64,000 nt of DNA from Ischnura elegans (Eukaryota > Arthropoda > Insecta > Odonata > Coenagrionidae): NCBI RefSeq assembly GCF_921293095.1, contig NC_060252.1:79256866-79320865 (forward strand). The letters run 5' to 3'. A program made the position numbers and the translations under genes. The notes below the pieces were generated by a model. That model saw only the letters and a list, made by a program, of their open reading frames with translations, was not told the origin of the DNA and did not search any database. Positions 2,811 to 63,129 of this stretch are shown piece by piece. Within the stretch, counting starts at the first letter, position 1; each line of letters opens with the position of its first letter.

Positions 2811-5800
2811 CTACTTCAAGTCGAGCACGCGTTGGCGGCCGCTTTCATTGCTCCTGCGCTTGTACTTTTTCCGGTTGTGTTCCTCACTGCTGCTCCTGCT
2901 GTTGCGGTTTGGTCGTCTCCTCAGCGCCCTGCACCGGTACGGCCAGACGCACTGTCCCCCGTTCCACTCGTCGCGGACCATTCCGTCGATGCAGAAGCAC
3001 CCAGGGCGGCACCCAGTCGGGCAAGTAGTCGTCTGTTGCAGGAAGTTGCCGCATGTCCTCGTGCACCTTGAGCCGCAGGCAAGGAATATCTCGTTTCGTG
3101 CGCAGCGGGGTCGTCCCGACACCGGGCCGGAGAAAAGGCGGTCCAGGATGCTATTTGTTGTAGTACTGATGTTATTATTTATATTGTTATTATTGTTGTT
3201 GTTGTTATTATTGTTGTTGTTGTTATTATTATTATTGAGCTGATTTAAAATGTTGTTTATAATACTCTCGTCTGTCAACACAGCTTGCGGAAGTATGTTT
3301 CCAGCAGTTATGGTTGCTTCGCGGCTACCAGTGAGAACATTACTGTTTGGGATAAGGATGCCAGTGCCCGTGTTACCAAGAGTGACTTCTGGGAAAACGT
3401 TTCCATAATTGTTTCCGTCGATGTCCTGCAAGTTGCCATTGGGATCTATAAACAAGCCGTTAGCGCCAAAAGGCACATTTGATGGCACGGGCCCATAATT
3501 GTTACCGTTGCCGTCCACCAAGTTGTTATTGGCATCTACAATCACGGGTATATTATTATTTCCGGTAACCTGGATATTAGCTCCATTAAGCAGGTTATCA
3601 GCTCCGATTACACCGTTGCTGGGACCAATGATGGCATTTTGGGGACCTGTGAAAGAAAAATGGCAGAAGTTAATGATATATAATTGCTGGGCTTGTTTCG
3701 ATGTAAATAAATTCAACGTTTGCTATGCATCATGGGGTATAAGTTATTATTCTGAACAATCTGGAAGGTTTGGGAACTTGACTGTGCGTGGTAAGTGATA
3801 GAATATTTGGAAATGATAAAGGTAGATATGGCAAAATCAATTTCGTTGTTGAAATCAATTGGTAAGAAAATGAGAATGACTTCGCTATGTAGGAAATTTT
3901 AGATAGGGCTGATCATGATTCCAAGTAATGAACTAATTCTGCTATTCACAATGTACTAAAAAGAGATAGGTATGCAGCGAGTATACGCCTAAGTAGAGTT
4001 ATAGAAGGAGAAGAGGAAGCTAATCAAAGGTATGTAGGGGTAAATGTAATCTTCAAGGAAAATAATCACGTGCCAGTTAATAGAGGTTCAGTGGTTAATA
4101 TCGTGATATTTGATTGGAATAAATTCATGCAAATCGAATTAATCAAGTTCTATCCGCCAGAATGCAAAATAAAAAATTAAATGAAACATTTATGGTTGAT
4201 TGCGGGCACAGTTTATTCCACTAAATGGGTCGTACATTGCAGTTGGCTCAGGACTGCCGAAGATAGTTTTCATACCTTAATTTTTCATGCCTCTTTAGTG
4301 AATGAACGTTAGCCATTAAGTGGAATCATTGCTACTTAGTTGTTGATTTAGTACTTTGCTCCGCAGATAAGTGTCACTTATCTGCGAAGCTGAGTACTAA
4401 ATCAGATCCGTCTTTTGAGCAGTGAGTTACAAATTTTCTCCTTTAATTGTCATAACGTGATGAGAAGAATATACAATAAACCGTTTCTATTGTAGAGGAC
4501 TTTATTTGCTACTGTAATGTGAACATTAAAACAAAAGGCGTATGCATAGAATTCCAAACTATAATGCTACAAATAGCAAACTAGAGAGCCAGAAAAATTA
4601 GCTTTATATTTGGTGATAAAAATCTTATTCTAATTCGAACTCATTTAAAACTTAGCAGCATATTATTATAATTCGCTTCTAATTATTACTTCAGCTGTTT
4701 AAAGTCATGCGACATATATAAGGTTTCTTAGCATTGTATGCTATAAATAAGACTCTATCGATTAAATCACTTTTGGCTGGCATTATCGATACCTGTAGAA
4801 GTTAAATTTTTATTTCTGTAGGTTTTTAATTTAAGAAATATTGCTTTTGGAGGATTGTCACAAACTACAAATTGTTATCGCTGTAAACCTATGCATTATT
4901 GCCTTTTTACATGATTCTCTTAACTTTCCTCGTCCGTTTGTTTGTTTCTTCGGTGGAATGATGAAATTGATTCCTAACCTCCTTCCCAATGTCGGATCGG
5001 CTTGAAAATTCGCATACGTGCTTGCTTTCAGTAAAAATACAATCAGACACTTGAAATATTGATCTATCATGTTCTCATTAATTAACTAAATTTCCATATG
5101 GAAAATTTGTTCTTAATTTTCTCTTTTGATATAGAGTATAATTATTAATAACTCTTTTTCAGAAAGTTCTTAATTTAAGGTTAAAGGTTTAATCGATTCA
5201 CCACTACAAAGTAGAAATTAAAAATAAATTAAATCAATATTAAAAAAACACTTTTTTCCAAATAGTGTGTAAAATGCAATTAAAAGTAAAATATATAAGA
5301 TTTTCATCAGGATAAAGCGTGGGTGCTAATTAAGTTTAGATATTAATATTGTGGGTCAGTCCTCACCCACCCGCCATATAAGGTCTCTTCAAAACTCATT
5401 TATAAATATGGTAGGTAGAGGGTGTTTGCTTTTCTGTCCGCTATGCGTTTACATATGGCTCCACGGATTGGGACCAAAGTTAGTGCATAGGTGCATCTCA
5501 TGCTCCTGAACCCCAAAGTACTAATTTTAGTTGCGTCCGACGCGTCCTTTGCGTCATTTCTCATTACAGTTTTTTACGCTACGTCATACAACCTCTGTAG
5601 GTGGACATCCTGCCGGGTAGGCACACCTCTTGACACAATGAATGGGAAAACATAAAGATATGGTAGTTATGGTATTTGGAGGAGACGGCCGAGAGCTGAG
5701 GTCATTTGCGCCATGAGGGAAGGGTAGTTAAGGAGGGATGGAGAGAAACCCGGCGTCGGCATTAGCCTGCTCTTAAAGAACAGCGCCTAGGGGACCACGG

Positions 5801-23980: not shown

Positions 23981-26900
23981 TCAGTTCCTTTCTCCCTTCC
24001 TTCGGCGGCGATGTTCCTCGCTGCTGCTGCTGCGACTGCTTCTGTCTCTTCGGTTCGGGCGTCTCCTCAGCACACTGCATCGGCTGGGCCTCACGCAGAG
24101 TCCCCTATTAAACTCGTCGCGGACCCGCTCGCCGGCGCAAAAGCATCCCGGACGGCACTGGCGCGTGCAAGTCGTTTGCAGCAGGTAGTTCCCGCAGGTC
24201 CTCGTGCAACCGGGCCCACAGGCGAGGAATACCTCATTCCGTCTGCACCGAGGGTTACCGGAAATTGGTCCGTTGAATAGATTGCCTAAGTCTGGAATAT
24301 TATTGTTGTTGTTTCCAGTGCCCTGATTAGGTATGAACACGTTTGGATTTGGATTTGCATTTGGATTTGTATTTGGAATTACTCCCGAAGGGTTGAATAC
24401 ACTTTGTGGCAGTATGTTTCCGCTTGTTATGATTGCTTCGCCGCTGACTGGAAGAGGCCGCTGGATAAGGTAATTGCTTGCTACCTGTGGGTCTGCAAAT
24501 AAAAAAAATAAAAAACAAAGTTAGTCGTTTGGTGATGCTCGGTGAAAGATATCGTATGGAGATATTCAAACCTTACATGATATGAAATTAATCAATCAGT
24601 CACATTTCACAGTAATTGTAATGAGAAAGCATTACTCTGGAGTGAGAAATGACAGACCGACCTTTGGCTTTCCGCAACCTCAAACTATCGGTGGCATCCG
24701 AATTCCGTACCATTTATTACCGTCAAAAAAGGTCGCAAAAAAGTCCACTAATTCGTGCGTCAGTATTCCGCAAATTACCAGTAGCTAGTTGTTCCGAGCG
24801 GGTGTGTTTCTGCCAGCTGCAATGTGTGCTAGGTGTATAGCATAGTGCGAAATTATTAATTTTTAGAATTGCTGTTATACTAACTAAAAATTCGCAGAAA
24901 CTTGAAAAATAAATTTAAGTTTGGCTTTCGATTTGGTCAATTATGCCTATTATATGCCTCGAACAGCTAAAAAAAAATGTTTTGCGCCGCAAATCCAGAT
25001 GTTATCTGTCCATAGGTACTAGACATTTATAAATTCATGCCTAATTTAGATCTGAGAGACGACGCATTGTCGCTGGCATAGCAGTACTATTCGAAGTTAA
25101 GACGCTTTCGGTCTGGAAAGTAAGGTTAGGCTGTGCATGTGGATGAGCCGAATCTATCATGTTTAGGGGAAAGTTTCATGATCAAGGGAAAATTGCGACG
25201 GAAATCAAGGAACTTGGCTAGCGTAGTGGAATGCGTTGTGGCCCTGATAGTCAAAGTCATGTGGCTTGACTTCCAGTCCAGAGGAATTTTTCTCCCGAGG
25301 AACTTTTGTGAATTTCAACGCCAAAATTATGTGGTTCGATTCCCGGCCAAGAGGAATTTTTACCCGTGGAAATGTTTTGTGAAATTCAACGCCGTTCGCG
25401 TTGCCGGTTGTAAACGAATCGCAATGTATAACTAGTTTTCTGGTATTAATGTTAAATAATCATTTAAACCATCTCATATTTGATCGTAACGGTATCGTCT
25501 ACTTCGTGAACAGTTCATAGGATCATCGCCGGGTTAGGAATTGCATTTATGTAACGTTTTGATGTCCAAATTGTCGGCAGAAATCCATTTCCTCACACGG
25601 TGGCGATCCCGAGAACTCTTCACATAGTCTATTCGCCGCTATAACTAAATACACTCAGAAGTGAGGACACACATTTATTCACCTAGAAATCCCAAAATCT
25701 TTCCTTCTCCACTACTTCCTTGTCGTCATCTTCCCATTATTTTGCAATTCCTTGAAATTTCATTCCCTTCTCAGATGACTACTAGTTGAATTGGACTGCT
25801 GGATGCTTATTTAACATCGGGTATTTTGGTGACTAAAATCAACTACATCTGAAAGAAACTTTAGCATGGCGTCCGCGTAAATTCTAAAATCTTGAAGTGA
25901 GAGTTTTAAGACCGATGGAAAACAGGAGAGAAAGTTAATGTACATCTCGCGTTGGTCATAGCCGAGAAAAGGGTGCAGCTTTTACAGTAAAGAACCAAAT
26001 TATGCATTGATTTGCTGATGGACGAATGTAATGTTAGTTGATTAAGGGGAGAATTTTAATGCTGCGATATTGGGGAAAAACTCTGTCCTAGGCCGACTAA
26101 GTCCTAACAAGCTGTGAAAGTGGGCCTTGTCGAACGTGAAAACCATGTATTCCCAAGAAGAACAAAAGTTAGCACCCTAAATTCCGTTTTTCTTTTTCTT
26201 TGAAAGTTGTGAACTCATCGCATAAATGTGTGGAAAATCTCTGTTTTTAATTTAAAATACTTTATCTAAGGAATCTCTTATTATCATGCATCTAACAAGA
26301 GCCAAAGAAAACCATGCCAGAGGCTAAGCCAAATCTTTGCCTTTTGACGCGATCTGTATTACAGGTATTTAATTCTGCCCGTGAAAATTTTTGGATGAGA
26401 AAGTAAAAGAAGTGCACTTGTCCGACCACACCTTTAATACGCAGTGAGCATATGAGATCCGGCGCAGAAAAACTTTATCCGTGAATGGAATAAAATACAA
26501 AGGAAAGCTGCCCAATAAGTCAAAAACTGCTACGGGCGTACCGACAGCGTTACCCGGGTGTTAAGCGAATTAGGGTGGGAGCCGCTTGAGACTCGGAGGC
26601 AGCGCGCTAGGTTTAGATAGCTTGAATAATTGAGAATAGTTATCTTTAATAGCGACAGGGAGAACATCATCTTAGAACCCACTATATTTACAGGTCCGAC
26701 AGAAACTAAAATTTAAGAGAGACTTATTTTGCCGAACGGATTGAAATGGGAATTCATTTTTCCCGCGAAACTAAAATGACTTAAATAAATGGTAATCTTA
26801 ATTTTGTTTGAGCATTTACTTTTTATATGCATATAGCTGGTGTCCTAACATTCCCTGCCGCAAGCCTTTTAGACGGCTTGCAGAGTAGTATGAAGGTGAA

Positions 26901-32007: not shown

Positions 32008-32013
32008 TTTATT
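32008..32013 (-). terminator. Candidate poly(A) signal of TIL-3
   Basis: Nearest clear AATAAA on the minus strand, about 220 nt past the stop. Confidence 0.3.
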
Positions 32014-32232: not shown

Positions 32233-34375
32233 CTAGTTACTGCTTCGGCTCCTGCTCTCGCTGCTCCTGTGCTTGTGGTGACGGCGCCTCTTCAGTTGGC
32301 TGCACTTGTTCGGCCTCACGCACAGTCCCCGGTTCCATTCGTCGCGGACTAAATCGTTAATGCAGAAGCACCCGGGGCGGTTGGCAGCCGTGCATGTCGT
32401 AGTCGTCGTCTGCTGGAAGAAGTTGCCGCAGGTCCTTGTGCATCCGGATCCGCTAGCGAGGAATATCTCGTTCCTTCTGCAGCGTGGATTGCCGGCAACC
32501 GGCCCGTCGAATATGGTAGCTCCCGTAAAGGTCTGGCCAGCGATTGTCTGGCCAACGAATGTCTGCTGGGGCACTATCGTATAAAAAAAGGACAGCATGG
32601 ATGAGAATCAGATTACGTAAAAACGGCAACCGTCACATGGCTAATTTTTCCCCGGTTTGAGAAACATATTTAATTTCATCCAGCATAATTCAATCGCGTG
32701 TATTGGAGGAAGAATTAATTCATTTAAAATTCTTTATATTCCAAGGTTATTTATGTGCTTGGCATTAAATTTGTAGTATTGGAATGGCAGTATTCAAAAG
32801 CTGAATCATAATATATATTTTCGTTCAATCTTTATTCATGGATTTTTTCCTTACTGTTTAATGAAACATGAAACAGAAATGACAGACCTTACTTATGCGT
32901 TTTATGTATTCCATTCCTGCCTTGAATAGTTGGTACATGCCTCTGAGGCTCGAAGAAGATTCAATTTTCTTCTCTTAATTTCCTTTGCAATCGCTAACAC
33001 TATATTCTTACACATGGCGAACTAGGGGGTTTAAAAACTCATCTATCAAGGGTGGACACTAGTATGGAATATTTCTGATGTAAAATGATTTTAGCCGTCT
33101 ATACCTCCAAGTTGGTTCGTTTTTTCGGTATTTGTGAACCCCATTATACTTAATCTTCCCTTACACTTGGCTCGACCCTGTTGGACTGCACTCGGTGCAT
33201 TGAAATCTCTGGATGTATGGAACGTTCGTAAGTTTCTATCTACCTCATGTTGAGCTCTATCTCACTCGCTTTGAAGTACTAGCGGTAACTTGGGATAGGT
33301 GTATCAAAATTCAAAATACTCTTTTGCTCTGTTCTCTTGGGAGTTTTTTTAAAAAACGAATGTCACACATATTACACTCATTTACCTGGGTTCTTGGTCC
33401 CTCAGTCAGGGAATGCTAACCGACATTCCTCCAACTGATTAATGAAATAGAGATTCGTTAGTATCTACAAAGAGTGACTGTGTTATCTGAATGAGTTTTT
33501 ATAGTGCTTCTTAAAATGAATTTAGATAAAGCAAAAAATAGCCAACGGTACCAGTTATGACTTTTAAAACTCCAACTCTAACGCCATAATTCTGAAAGAT
33601 ATCTGTTCTACGTCTCCTTTAAACTAAGAGCCTACTCAACCAGAATTGCTACAACATGGAACATGTAGAGTGGACGATTTTGAAAGAGAGGCGATGGCTC
33701 GAAAACATCTCACATTGTGATAAAGATCATTACTTAAGTTCCAAATGTATTGTTTTTCAAGACTTACTGGAACTTCATTTTTACACAATCTTGGTGGTTC
33801 AATTGTAAATCTTTAACAACTTTATTGAATTATATTTCTGTTAATTTATTACTTCCCAGTGCAATTTAATATTTAATAAACTGAATGAATTTAAATAAAA
33901 TATGAGATTTAGTTATTGGTTGCAGTGGGCGATCTTGATGCCTTATTAATTTGAGGTCTTAGCCACAACCGTAGTGAATACCACTCATGAAGTCCTAAAG
34001 TTGATCTAATTCCTCAAGATTTCACAGCTTTCTTCTTTAGCTTACCACGTTAGCTGAACATAATATATTTGCCAAATATAGTAAATTTTTAAAGTGGGAC
34101 GCACAGTAATAATGATATTTGGCTGCTGGCTCGACAGATTCAAGAAATTCACTAGTCCTTAAAATAAAATACACGTTACCTGAGTTTATTGCCCTCTTTG
34201 AAAAGGCAAGCCGTCTTAATTTTATCTCTAAGAATATGTACTGGCTTCATTACAGCATGCAGCTAAAAAAATGGAATGGCAAGAATACCTAATTTGCTTT
34301 TTTTTTGGGAGACAACTTACCTCCATTGGCTGATACGAAGGCCAAAGCCAACAGAACTGCTACCTTGAACACCAT
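32233..34375 (-). CDS. TIL-3: TIL-domain protein lacking one disulfide pair
   Basis: Exon 1 is 34375-34321 (55 nt), leader MVFKVAVLLALAFVSANG, GTAAG donor. Exon 2 is 32573-32233 after an acceptor ending GATAG; stop TAG at 32233-32235; 131 aa. The phase-1 join gives a Val codon. The linker is short (about 30 residues, with F-x-G-x-T and G-Q-T repeats). The TIL domain (about 50-109) has only 8 of 10 cysteines: position 2 is Ser59 (AGC) and position 6 is Asn83 (AAC). In the Ascaris-inhibitor fold these two form the C2-C6 bond, so one complete disulfide is absent. The reactive loop reads C-T-A-A-N, so P1 would be Ala81. The tail is His/Arg/Ser-rich (22 residues). The reading frame is intact, so this looks like a diverged gene and not simple decay. 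Confidence 0.8.
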
Positions 34376-36129: not shown

Positions 36130-37050
36130 ATGGAATTACCTGGTCATACTTCATCATTATCATCATATTGTGGTGTTCTGCCCGTCGGCAGGTCCCCCGC
36201 GCCAATGCTGTCTCCATTCCCTCCTGTCTCCGGTCATCTCCTTGAAGTCTCCATATCTTCGAATTTTTACGTTGTCGATAACCTTTAGCCTTCTCCTTCC
36301 TCCTCCTCTGATCCCTTCCACCGTTCCCTCCGAAGCTACTTTCAAAATTCCATTTCCCTCATCAAATGCCCCAGCCAGTTACCCTTCCTTTGATTTATTT
36401 GGTCCATCAACGTTCTTTTCTCATCTATCCTATTTAACACTTGCTTATTCCTAACTCGATCCGTCCACCGTATTCCCTCCATCTTCATCCAAACCCACAT
36501 CTCAAACGCCTCAATTATGTCCCTGTCTCTCTTCCCCATCGTCCAAGTCTCATATCCATACATAAACGCACTCCACACATAGCATTTCATCAATCTCTTC
36601 CTCAATTTTAATTCCAGTGCCTTGTTACACAAGGCTCTTTTCTTCTTCTTGAAAACTTTGTTCGCCATTCCTATTCCTCTTTTTATTTTTCCTATACGTT
36701 TCCAGTCTTCAGTTATCGAAGTCCCCAAGTAGCTGTAGGTTCTCACATTCTGTACTTCACCTTCTTTTGTCTTCACCCTCATACCATCTACATTTCTCAC
36801 TTTTATCACTTTATTCTTCTCAACGTTTATTTTCATTCCACATGTTTCCATTCCTTCCTCCAACCCTGTTACCAATATCTGCAGTGACTCTATGTCCTCG
36901 GCTAAAAGCAGCATAACATCAGCAAATCTGATGCATCTTATTTATACTCCACCAATACTTATTCCCTCTTCTCTTTCATGCAATATCGCACTTATCATAT
37001 CTTCAACATACATGAAGCTTGAAAAAAAGTTAGGTCTTATGCTTGTGAAG
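36130..37050 (-). mobile_element. LINE RT C-terminal half with (ATGATG)-type tail
   Basis: Minus-strand open frame of 190 aa (36914-36342): LLLAEDIESLQILV, MKINVEKNKVIKV, YSYLGTSITED, KCYVWSAFMYGYETWTM, IRWTDRVRNKQVLNRI and GNWLGHLMR. Just upstream the catalytic box reads RFADV where RFADD is expected, so the second catalytic Asp is lost. The element ends in an ATGATGATAATGATG tail near 36150. RTE/BovB-like but a different family from 59850-63125. Confidence 0.8.
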
Positions 37051-38004: not shown

Positions 38005-38250
38005 TTTAAGTAAATAAAAGATCGTAGTACTTTTCCACAAGAGTTTTTAATGCGTACAACGCGTTTCGGCTCACTGAGCCATCATATGGTACAAGACGAT
38101 GGCTCAGTGACTGAGCCATCATATGGTACAAGACGATGGCTCAGTGACTGAGCCATCATATGGTACAAGACGATGGCTCAGTGAGCCGAAACGCGTTGTA
38201 CGCATTAAAAACTCTTGTGGAAAAGTTGTACGATCTTTTATTTACTTAAA
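38005..38250. repeat. Fold-back palindrome 1 with triplicated 37-bp core
   Basis: Arms of about 80 bp (TTTAAGTAAATAAAAGATCG... and its inverse ...CGATCTTTTATTTACTTAAA) differ at only a few bases. The centre holds three 37-bp tandem units (CATCATATGG phases at 38081, 38118, 38155), each with a GAGCCATC/GATGGCTC inverted pair. The right arm has hairpin GGCTC/GAGCC followed by GAAAC. Confidence 0.85.
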
Positions 38251-46730: not shown

Positions 46731-48503
46731 TTAGTTATTGCTGCGATGTTTTCTGCGTTCGTTGCTGCTTCGGCTGTCCTCCTCACTACTGCTTCTGTCA
46801 CGGATTGGGCGAATCCTCCATCTCCTGCAGCGGAGCGGATTCACGCACAATCCCCCGTTGAGTTCGTCTCGCACCGTTCCTCCAACGCAGAAGCATCCTG
46901 GCCTACACCCAGTCGGGCAAGTCGTCGTCGTTTGCAGGAAGTTGCCGCAGGTAATCGTGCACCTTGAACCGCACGTGAGGAATATCTCATTCCTACGGCA
47001 GCGGGGGTTGCCGGAGACAGGGCCGGAGAAGAGACTTGCCAAGTCAAAATTTGCCGTGTTAGCTGCCGCGAGGTTAGGGCCGGCTACCGCCTGGAACGTA
47101 TTCATCTGTGGCTCTTTGAGAGAAGATGAAAAGATTAATTTTTGAAAAGGATGCAATATTATGGTTTACAATCTGATTAAAATTTTAGACTTCAATTTTT
47201 GCATACACAGAACAGAAAAAGACAATTCACTTATTATGTTCCACTTTGACTTTTTATTTCTGTAAACAGCGCTGTGGCTCTTTGAGAAAAAATGAGTGCA
47301 TTCACTTTAAAGAGGATTCTACTATGATTTAGACACCGTTTAAGATTTGAGTCTTCACTTTTTGGAACCACGGAATAGAAAAAGAACATTTACTTTGTAT
47401 ATTACACTTTGACTCTCTATATCCGAAGATAACGCAGAGGCTCTTTGAGAAAAGATGAGGAGATTAATTTTTATGTTAATGCAATTATGATTCACATGTT
47501 GATCACCGCCTCCGAGTATAGTCTAAGCATGATATGCAAAGTTTTGGCCAACGTTTCGATACATTTTTAAAGATCTTCTGCAAGGGTATGAATGAATATG
47601 ATCAATTTTTGCGCAATTGGATTCTATTTATTGTTTATTTTACTATAGTAAAAACATTATAATTATATTTCATGGCATCATGTATTATTTTAATGTAATC
47701 ATATTTATTCATAGTCCTGAAGAAGATACTAAACGTATATCGAAAAGTCGGCAAATAATTTTGCAAATCATTCTTCGACCTATACTTGGAGGCAACATTA
47801 AAAAATTAAGATCAACATAGCAAAGAAAAGAAAAAAGAAATTGGTTAATATTAACATACTGTTTAAAAATTGAGTCTTAACCTTTTTTCACGTACATGCA
47901 TTACAAAATTCAGACGAAAACATAGAAAAAGACCGAAATACCTATAAATCTAGGGAGCAATGTCAAGAATGACAAAAAAATTGTGCCTAAGGAAGCTAAT
48001 CTTCCGAAGCCGCGAAATTTTTTAACTTGTCAATGAGTGTTTCCGTGTTTTTCCATAAGCTACTGTTAGCTGCGACTTCTGAATATTGCTGGCTTGGCTT
48101 GCGGCAACATAATGGGTTGCCTTTTGTTTATGTATTTTCAACAAGCTATACTAGTCCAATAAATTCAATATGAAATATTCAATATGACTAATAGTAATGG
48201 ATTAGAATAAAGATCACCACTAAATATTCGCACTCCGTACCAATGACCATGCGATGGAATGAACCGAAGTAATTAAGCCACGTTCCTGATTGCTCTTATT
48301 GGGGAAAGTTTCTCAGTTGCGCCATTAATTTCCGTAAAAGATTGCGCTGTGGTATTTTTAGATAGGTGAAAAGATTGCCCAAAGAATTGGTTCAAGAAAA
48401 GATTGAAACAAAAAAGGTCATCTTGCGCTTCTTTGAAGGACAACTCACCCGCGTTGACTGCCGCAAAAGCCAATGCCGAAGCAACAAAAAGTGCGATCCT
48501 CAT
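46731..48503 (-). CDS. TIL-4: secreted TIL-domain protease inhibitor-like protein
   Basis: Exon 1 is 48503-48449 (55 nt), leader MRIALFVASALAFAAVNA, GTGAG donor. Exon 2 is 47113-46731 after the acceptor TCTCAAAG; stop TAA at 46731-46733; 145 aa. The phase-1 join gives Glu. A linker of about 35 residues (Ala/Asn-rich) leads to the shared F-S-G-P-V-S-G-N-P-R motif and a TIL domain (about 57-114) with all 10 cysteines and a C-P-T-G-C loop as in TIL-1 (P1 Thr86). The tail is Arg/Ser/Glu-rich (31 residues). The exon-2 acceptor lies in a roughly 165-bp tandem repeat with two more copies upstream, and the 3' end is repeated three times downstream. Confidence 0.83.
47105..47510 (-). repeat. Tandem repeats carrying copies of the TIL-4 exon-2 acceptor
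   Basis: GCTCTTTGAG (plus strand) occurs at 47111 (true acceptor), 47277 and 47440, spacings 166 and 163 bp, within similar flanking sequence. Each upstream copy keeps CTCAAAG/AGCC. If used, either would open an exon in the normal phase that meets a stop within about eight codons. The next unit is interrupted by a fold-back element and resumes near 47830. Confidence 0.65.
47508..47815. repeat. Fold-back element 4 inside the TIL-4 intron repeat
   Basis: The left arm GCCTCCGAGTATAG...TTTCGATACATTTTTAAAG faces CCTGAAGAAGATACTAAACG...CCTATACTTGGAGGC in inverse (about 47509-47590 and 47717-47796). It splits the acceptor-bearing tandem repeat, and GTTGATC/GATCAAC marks its outer ends. The right arm has CTGAAGA, hairpin, GAAAAG. 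Confidence 0.65.
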
Positions 48504-62033: not shown

Positions 62034-63129
62034 TATCTCAGATGTGACAAGATACTTCTTTTTGTAGGAAGCCCTCTTTGCCTGCGCTATTCTACTCCGT
62101 GGATATTGACACCCAAAGCTTTCTCCTTGATTTCATTGATGGCTTTCTCTATGTAGATATTTAAAATGATGGGGGAAAGTGCACACTGCACACCCTTGTC
62201 TCACCCCTTTTCTTTTTCTTGCTTCTGCACCGTTGGGTCACAACTACTTGGTTTTTATATAAACTATGAAAAATTCTACGATCAATGTAGGGCACTCCGA
62301 TTTCTTTCATAATTCTAAGCATTGAATTCCATTCCACGTTATCAAATGCCTTCCGTATATCGACAAATGCTATGAAAGTCGGTTTGCTTATCTCCATTCT
62401 CTCTCTCTATGAGCAGCCTAAGTGCCAAAGTTGCTTCTCTTTTGCCCTTGCTTTTCCTAAATCCGAATTGATCCTCATCCAGGAATTCTTCTGCTCTTCG
62501 TTCTATTCTCCTGTAAATGATTCTTGTCAGAATCTTCGACGCATGTGTCGTCAGGCTTATGGTCCTAATGTCTTTGCACTTCTCTGCTTTCTTCTTTTTG
62601 TGTGTGGGAATGATGACGTTTTTTTCAAAGTCACTAGGTATATCTCCTGTTGTGTGCATATCGCAGACAGTTTTATTCAGTTGAGTTAAGACCTTTTCTC
62701 CTGCTTTTTTGATTATCTCTGCTGGAATTTCATCTATTTCTGAGGCCTTATTCTTTCACAGGTCTCTTTTTGCAGCGTCAAATTCCGATCTTAAGGTGCT
62801 CGCTCCCATGTCATCCTTTTCTACTTCACTTTCCTTTTTGATAATTTTTTAGCTGAGTTTGCTTCCGCTGTATAATTCCTCCAGGTATTCCTTCCATCTC
62901 TCGGCTTTGTTTTCGTTTTCAATTAGAATATTTCCATACTTGTCCCTAATGGTATTAAACCTTGTGCTTCGTTCCATGAAATGGTTCCTCGCTATTCTAT
63001 AGGCCGCTTCCACTTTCCCATGTACGAGGTCATTTTGCTCGTCCTCGCATAGGTTCCTCAAATACATGGCTTCTCTGGCTTTCCTCGCTTTGCGGAAAAT
63101 CTCGTTCTTTATTATCTTGTATCATTATG

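Follow-up and report, generated by a model that had tools for sequence, protein, structure and literature searches.

A gene on chromosome 7 of the damselfly Ischnura elegans, TIL-3, encodes a TIL domain that has lost both ends of a single disulfide bond, C2-C6, and has kept the eight other cysteines. TIL-3 has a consistent gene model, is a paralogue of the ten-cysteine genes among which it lies and was under purifying selection in the past. With modest confidence we infer that it is a working gene for a secreted serine-protease inhibitor, folded on four disulfides and directed at a target of the elastase or subtilisin type.

A tandem array of TIL genes on chromosome 7

The genome searched is an assembly of 1,722,721,009 bases in 110 contigs. 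The window, i.e. the whole 64,000-nucleotide stretch of DNA that was analysed, is located on its chromosome 7 (C7:79256866-79320865). Four TIL exons were identified in the window, all on the minus strand (Table 1). A fifth gene of the array, L001 (C7:79243007), lies about 14 kb beyond the window; it encodes ten cysteines, with Asn-Val as putative P1-P1'. In each window gene, exon 2 encodes a linker, then the TIL domain, then a basic Ser-rich tail, and in all four a Pro-Gln motif stands at its start, in matching phase. Each of the four genes also has a candidate first exon, 18 codons long, which encodes a hydrophobic signal-like peptide and ends at a phase-1 donor. The predicted introns measure about 1.3 to 2.6 kb.

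Table 1. Exons and other features of the TIL genes in the window (coordinates are those of the window; P1-P1' residues are putative)
Feature	Coordinates	Strand	Description
TIL-1 exon 2	2811..3646	-	ten Cys; P1-P1' Thr-Gly; long Asn-rich linker
TIL-1 candidate exon 1	6309-6255	-	from gene-model search
TIL-2 exon 2	23981..24492	-	ten Cys; P1-P1' Arg-Gln; pairs with TIL-3 on the best topology
TIL-2 candidate exon 1	27028-26974	-	from gene-model search
AATAAA polyadenylation-signal-like motif	32008..32013	-	3' of the TIL-3 stop; motif only
TIL-3 exon 2, including stop	32233..32573	-	short GQT-repeat linker, eight-Cys TIL domain, basic/Ser-rich tail
TIL-3 domain, C1-C10	32302..32481	-	Ser at C2, Asn at C6; P1-P1' Ala-Ala
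TIL-3 candidate exon 1	34321..34375	-	ATG, 18-residue signal-like peptide, phase-1 donor GTAAGT from 34320
TIL-4 exon 2	46731..47113	-	ten Cys; P1-P1' Thr-Gly
TIL-4 candidate exon 1	48503-48449	-	from gene-model search

The predicted product of TIL-3 has 131 residues. Upstream of its exon 2 the last base of an acceptor AG is found at 32574, and its candidate exon 1 is similar at the nucleotide level to the TIL-1 exon 1 region (73% over 74 nt, E 4e-7). A TATA-like motif upstream of the gene was spotted by eye. By the curated cut-off of Pfam PF01826 the domain is a TIL domain (30.9 bits vs a cut-off of 24.5, E 3e-7), covering positions 1-55 of the 55 of the profile. The paralogues share 60-63% identity with TIL-3 over the aligned exon and 67-71% in the domain.

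Several repeats were observed in the window. The GQT-containing pentapeptides of the TIL-3 linker are encoded by a 15-base tandem repeat (32531-32565), and the long Asn-rich run of the TIL-1 linker includes a repeat at 3170-3238. A 163-base tandem repeat of 2.4 copies (47110-47496) extends from the splice-acceptor region of TIL-4 into the intron, so that acceptor-like sequence may occur repeatedly there. A 37-base tandem unit is present in three perfect copies at 38073-38184. Two RVT_1-like fragments on the minus strand (36345-36941 and 62345-62755) score below the Pfam cut-off and are probably old retroelement remains.

The PF01826 search of the genome recovered at least nine TIL exons, a lower bound in that only the best candidates were scored. 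Five of them form the chromosome 7 array and four are located on C5 at 2.75-2.92 Mb. Ten cysteines were counted in six of the nine and eight in two (TIL-3 and L007); the last, L009, is partial and contains a stop. In this search TIL-3 scored below the four other genes of the array (32.2 bits vs 40.7-52.5), in part because two of its cysteines are gone. Protein searches of the genome with TIL-3 and TIL-2 revealed no further array members: the array accounted for five of eight and five of seven matches, respectively, and the others had E above 1. A genome search for VWD domains was also carried out, and none of the 12 matches listed falls in the chromosome 7 array. Four of the 12 map to C5 (2.75-2.94 Mb), interspersed with its TIL exons or close to them: three are separated from a TIL exon by no more than 14 kb, and the fourth is interrupted by stops and about 19 kb distant. 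This proximity makes it probable that the C5 TIL exons are parts of hemocytin-like or mucin-like genes. The eight-cysteine exon among them, L007 (1501-1674, C5:2753519-2753692), has a VWD match about 1 kb away and, as judged by eye, is devoid of C3 and C5, which are another bonded pair.

Cysteine pattern and past selection

Most TIL domains contain ten cysteines, joined in the bonds 1-7, 2-6, 3-5, 4-10 and 8-9 (PMC10004685). All ten are kept in the four other genes of the array, i.e. the three in the window and L001. TIL-3 is without this canonical five-disulfide form, as are published eight-cysteine TIL domains. In the codon alignment C2 is replaced by Ser59 and C6 by Asn83, and the remaining eight cysteines all align. 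The initial annotation had given these two residues, the count of eight and the exon coordinates exactly, and its pairing of C2 with C6 agrees with the published scheme (PMC10004685). The C2 codon is AGC in TIL-3 and the C6 codon AAC, vs TGC or TGT at both places in the four other genes; they are one and two substitutions away from TGC, respectively, so a minimum of three nucleotide changes separates the two codons from TGC. Only three of the 23 C1-C10 positions invariant in the four ten-cysteine genes differ in TIL-3, namely C2, C6 and one Leu to Phe. In addition, TIL-3 has two or three residues more between C4 and C5 than its window sisters, a difference that could change the loop.

The eight retained cysteines are exactly the four remaining bonded pairs. 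Two random losses among ten cysteines would strike bonded partners in 5/45 of cases (0.11); the pairing on its own is thus only mildly surprising and constitutes weak evidence. As a stand-alone argument, the proposition that partner loss proves selection was rejected on this ground. The initial annotation had seen in the paired loss a sign of selection on a working four-disulfide fold: a working domain of this kind is supported by constraint and gene structure.

Constraint was estimated with a codon model (own code) fitted to TIL-1 to TIL-4 over 83 of 111 alignment columns, with a separate omega for the TIL-3 branch. The pre-domain linker, most of the tail, columns with fewer than three of the four sequences and the distant L001 were excluded from the fit, and dN/dS was computed between paralogues. 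On the best topology, ((TIL-1,TIL-4),(TIL-2,TIL-3)), omega was 0.095 on the TIL-3 branch, an average over a long branch that is blind to very recent relaxation, vs 0.129 elsewhere. These omega values are only rough because synonymous sites are near saturation, with about 3.5 neutral substitutions per codon on the TIL-3 branch and four sequences only; the rejection of neutrality is firmer. Fixing the TIL-3 omega at 1 cost 5.96 log units on the best topology (2dlnL 11.9), and the corresponding 2dlnL on the two other topologies were 16.5 and 16.1. Neutral evolution, against which the initial annotation had set its proposal, is thus rejected for the TIL-3 branch on all three topologies. In a neutral-branch bootstrap on the best topology only, none of 80 replicates reached 11.9, the largest value being 4.16. 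Leaving out one gene at a time, changes at positions invariant in the other three amounted to 4/36 in TIL-3, 2/34 in TIL-1, 5/37 in TIL-2 (one of them a gap) and 3/35 in TIL-4. Two of the four in TIL-3 are the cysteines themselves. By these counts TIL-3 is not unusually divergent.

Reactive site and competing readings

We take P1-P1' to be the second and third residues after C5 in TIL domains, and all P1 assignments presented here use this rule. Position after C5 designates Ala81 as the putative P1 of TIL-3. Under the same rule C6 corresponds to P2', beside the residues of the scissile bond, in line with the earlier remark that C6 borders the reactive loop. The P1, P1' and C6 residues of TIL-3 all differ from those of TIL-2. 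A P1 Ala, Val or Gly is taken as elastase-type (PMC5309989).

Within the tandem array of five genes on chromosome 7, TIL-3 would have been duplicated from a ten-cysteine ancestor, most likely one common to TIL-2 and TIL-3. After the duplication it would have lost the C2-C6 disulfide, and its putative P1-P1' would now be Ala-Ala. The domain most likely folds on the remaining four disulfides and inhibits elastase- or subtilisin-type proteases as the silkworm inhibitor BmSPI39 does. The loop that follows C5 would act as a substrate-like canonical inhibitor of proteases accepting a small P1, and the targets would be elastase-like or subtilisin-like proteases, including microbial ones, as for BmSPI39. 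The AlphaFold prediction of TIL-3 (mean pLDDT 54.4, pTM 0.38, four aligned sequences only) is too poor to inform on disulfide geometry or on the flexibility of the loop. The ten-cysteine TIL-2, used as control, was equally poor (mean pLDDT 45.8, pTM 0.24, also four aligned sequences only), so the low pLDDT of TIL-3 is not specific to the missing bond.

TIL-3 might instead be functional and secreted but no longer an inhibitor, its four-disulfide scaffold serving in binding or structure while the loop drifts, as in TIL domains of the mucin/VWF type. We consider this unlikely, although it finds some support in the best single-sequence PDB match of TIL-3, the TIL domain of MUC2 (E 0.004), which is without C2 and C6, as well as in the residues by which TIL-3 departs from TIL-2 at P1, P1' and C6 and in the longer C4-C5 stretch. 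The array is nevertheless composed of single-domain TIL genes with none of the 12 listed VWD matches, and the silkworm relatives with the same C2/C6 loss are active inhibitors (PMC10004685).

Even less probable is that TIL-3 was constrained for most of its branch and has recently been relaxed or is dying, the cysteine losses being the onset of decay. Such a recent change would escape the branch test, in which it is averaged with the long time before it; the TIL score of TIL-3, below all others in the array, would also fit it, though the missing cysteines themselves contribute to that score. However, the reading frame is open, the splice sites are in place, the signal-like peptide and the AATAAA motif are present, only two of 34 positions invariant in the window sisters are changed besides C2 and C6 (L to F, R to K), and two random losses would rarely have fallen on partners. 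An assembly or base-calling artefact that erased two cysteine codons is highly improbable: such an error would have had to introduce three or more substitutions, spread over two codons, without disturbing the frame, and the I. elegans assembly is long-read, curated and chromosome-level (PMC9975421). A working inhibitor with four disulfides is the reading that we retain.

TIL domains with eight cysteines in other proteins

The initial annotation had implied that the loss of C2 and C6 was novel, but the same variant was already published. The silkworm inhibitors BmSPI38 and BmSPI39 are without exactly these two cysteines (PMC10004685) and, compared by their published description, resemble TIL-3 in keeping the eight others. 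A study cited in the same report (Li et al. 2016, Peptides 86:13-23) names the lost second and sixth cysteines in its title. BmSPI38 and BmSPI39 inhibit subtilisin, proteinase K, Aspergillus melleus protease and elastase, and neither trypsin nor chymotrypsin; their putative P1 residues are Gly54 and Ala56 (PMC10004685), the Ala of BmSPI39 being also the putative P1 of TIL-3. The introduction of C2 and C6 into these inhibitors lowered their activity on microbial proteases and altered their polymerisation, with specificity unchanged, whereas replacement of P1 by Arg or Lys conferred trypsin inhibition (PMC10004685). These experiments give no support to the idea that loss of the bond by itself determines specificity. 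They also speak against a simple link with the changed inhibition mode that the initial annotation had suggested for TIL-3, together with a possibly more flexible loop. BmSPI39 also blocks the conidial germination of Beauveria bassiana (PMC10000547).

Other eight-cysteine TIL domains have different targets. Egf1.0 and CvT-TIL contain eight cysteines with a P1 Arg and target the trypsin-like PAP3, and CvT-TIL also acts on subtilisin and, in some measure, on elastase and trypsin (PMC10004685). Eight cysteines thus do not define the target. A published eight-cysteine single-TIL inhibitor of subtilisin and fungal proteases is like TIL-3 in its domain and cysteine count (PMC10004685; PMC3278429); its P1 is Thr, as is putatively the case in TIL-1 and TIL-4 and unlike TIL-3. 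Silkworm TIL domains have four or five disulfides, FPI-F containing eight cysteines (PMC3278429).

In the alignment with TIL-3, the positions of C2 and C6 are occupied in the MUC2 TIL domain (PDB 7prl, 6tm2) by Ser and Arg, respectively; a further MUC2 match in 6tm2, a weak one, likewise has no cysteine at either position. A TIL domain lacking C2-C6 therefore occurs in a solved protein. MUC2 is a large mucin with a VWD-C8-TIL architecture, and protease inhibition is not the known role of its TIL domain. TIL-3, in contrast, is modelled as a stand-alone two-exon gene and does not have a layout of the mucin/VWF type, given the VWD search described above. The best profile match of the four window domains is the chymotrypsin inhibitor 1ccv (E 6e-7), presumably honeybee AMCI-1, which belongs to the TIL family like TIL-3 but has all ten cysteines.

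Since the C2/C6-less variant is published, the interest of TIL-3 lies in recurrence: it is a further, possibly convergent example. No paper on a damselfly or odonate TIL gene array was found among the titles and abstract openings listed. The Plutella xylostella TIL family is described with five disulfide pairs, and no four-disulfide form is named there (PMC5309989), which speaks against C2-C6 loss recurring in insects. The silkworm TIL family is comparable to the damselfly array in that nine of its 15 genes are attributed to tandem duplication (PMC5309989). TIL-3 sits among ten-cysteine sisters in one array, so its loss of C2 and C6 may be independent of that in silkworm. It can be proposed, tentatively, that C2-C6 loss and a small P1 evolved independently of Lepidoptera and made TIL-3, from a ten-cysteine ancestor, an antimicrobial-protease inhibitor of the elastase/subtilisin type; in its closest sister, TIL-2, the putative P1 is Arg. 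If so, dropping the C2-C6 disulfide would be a repeatable route to microbial-protease inhibition. Should TIL-3 inhibit microbial-type proteases, C2-C6 loss would be recurrent in insect antimicrobial-protease inhibitors, beyond silkworm. TIL-3 and its sisters offer a clean natural comparison in this respect, i.e. tandem paralogues of which one is without a disulfide kept by the others.
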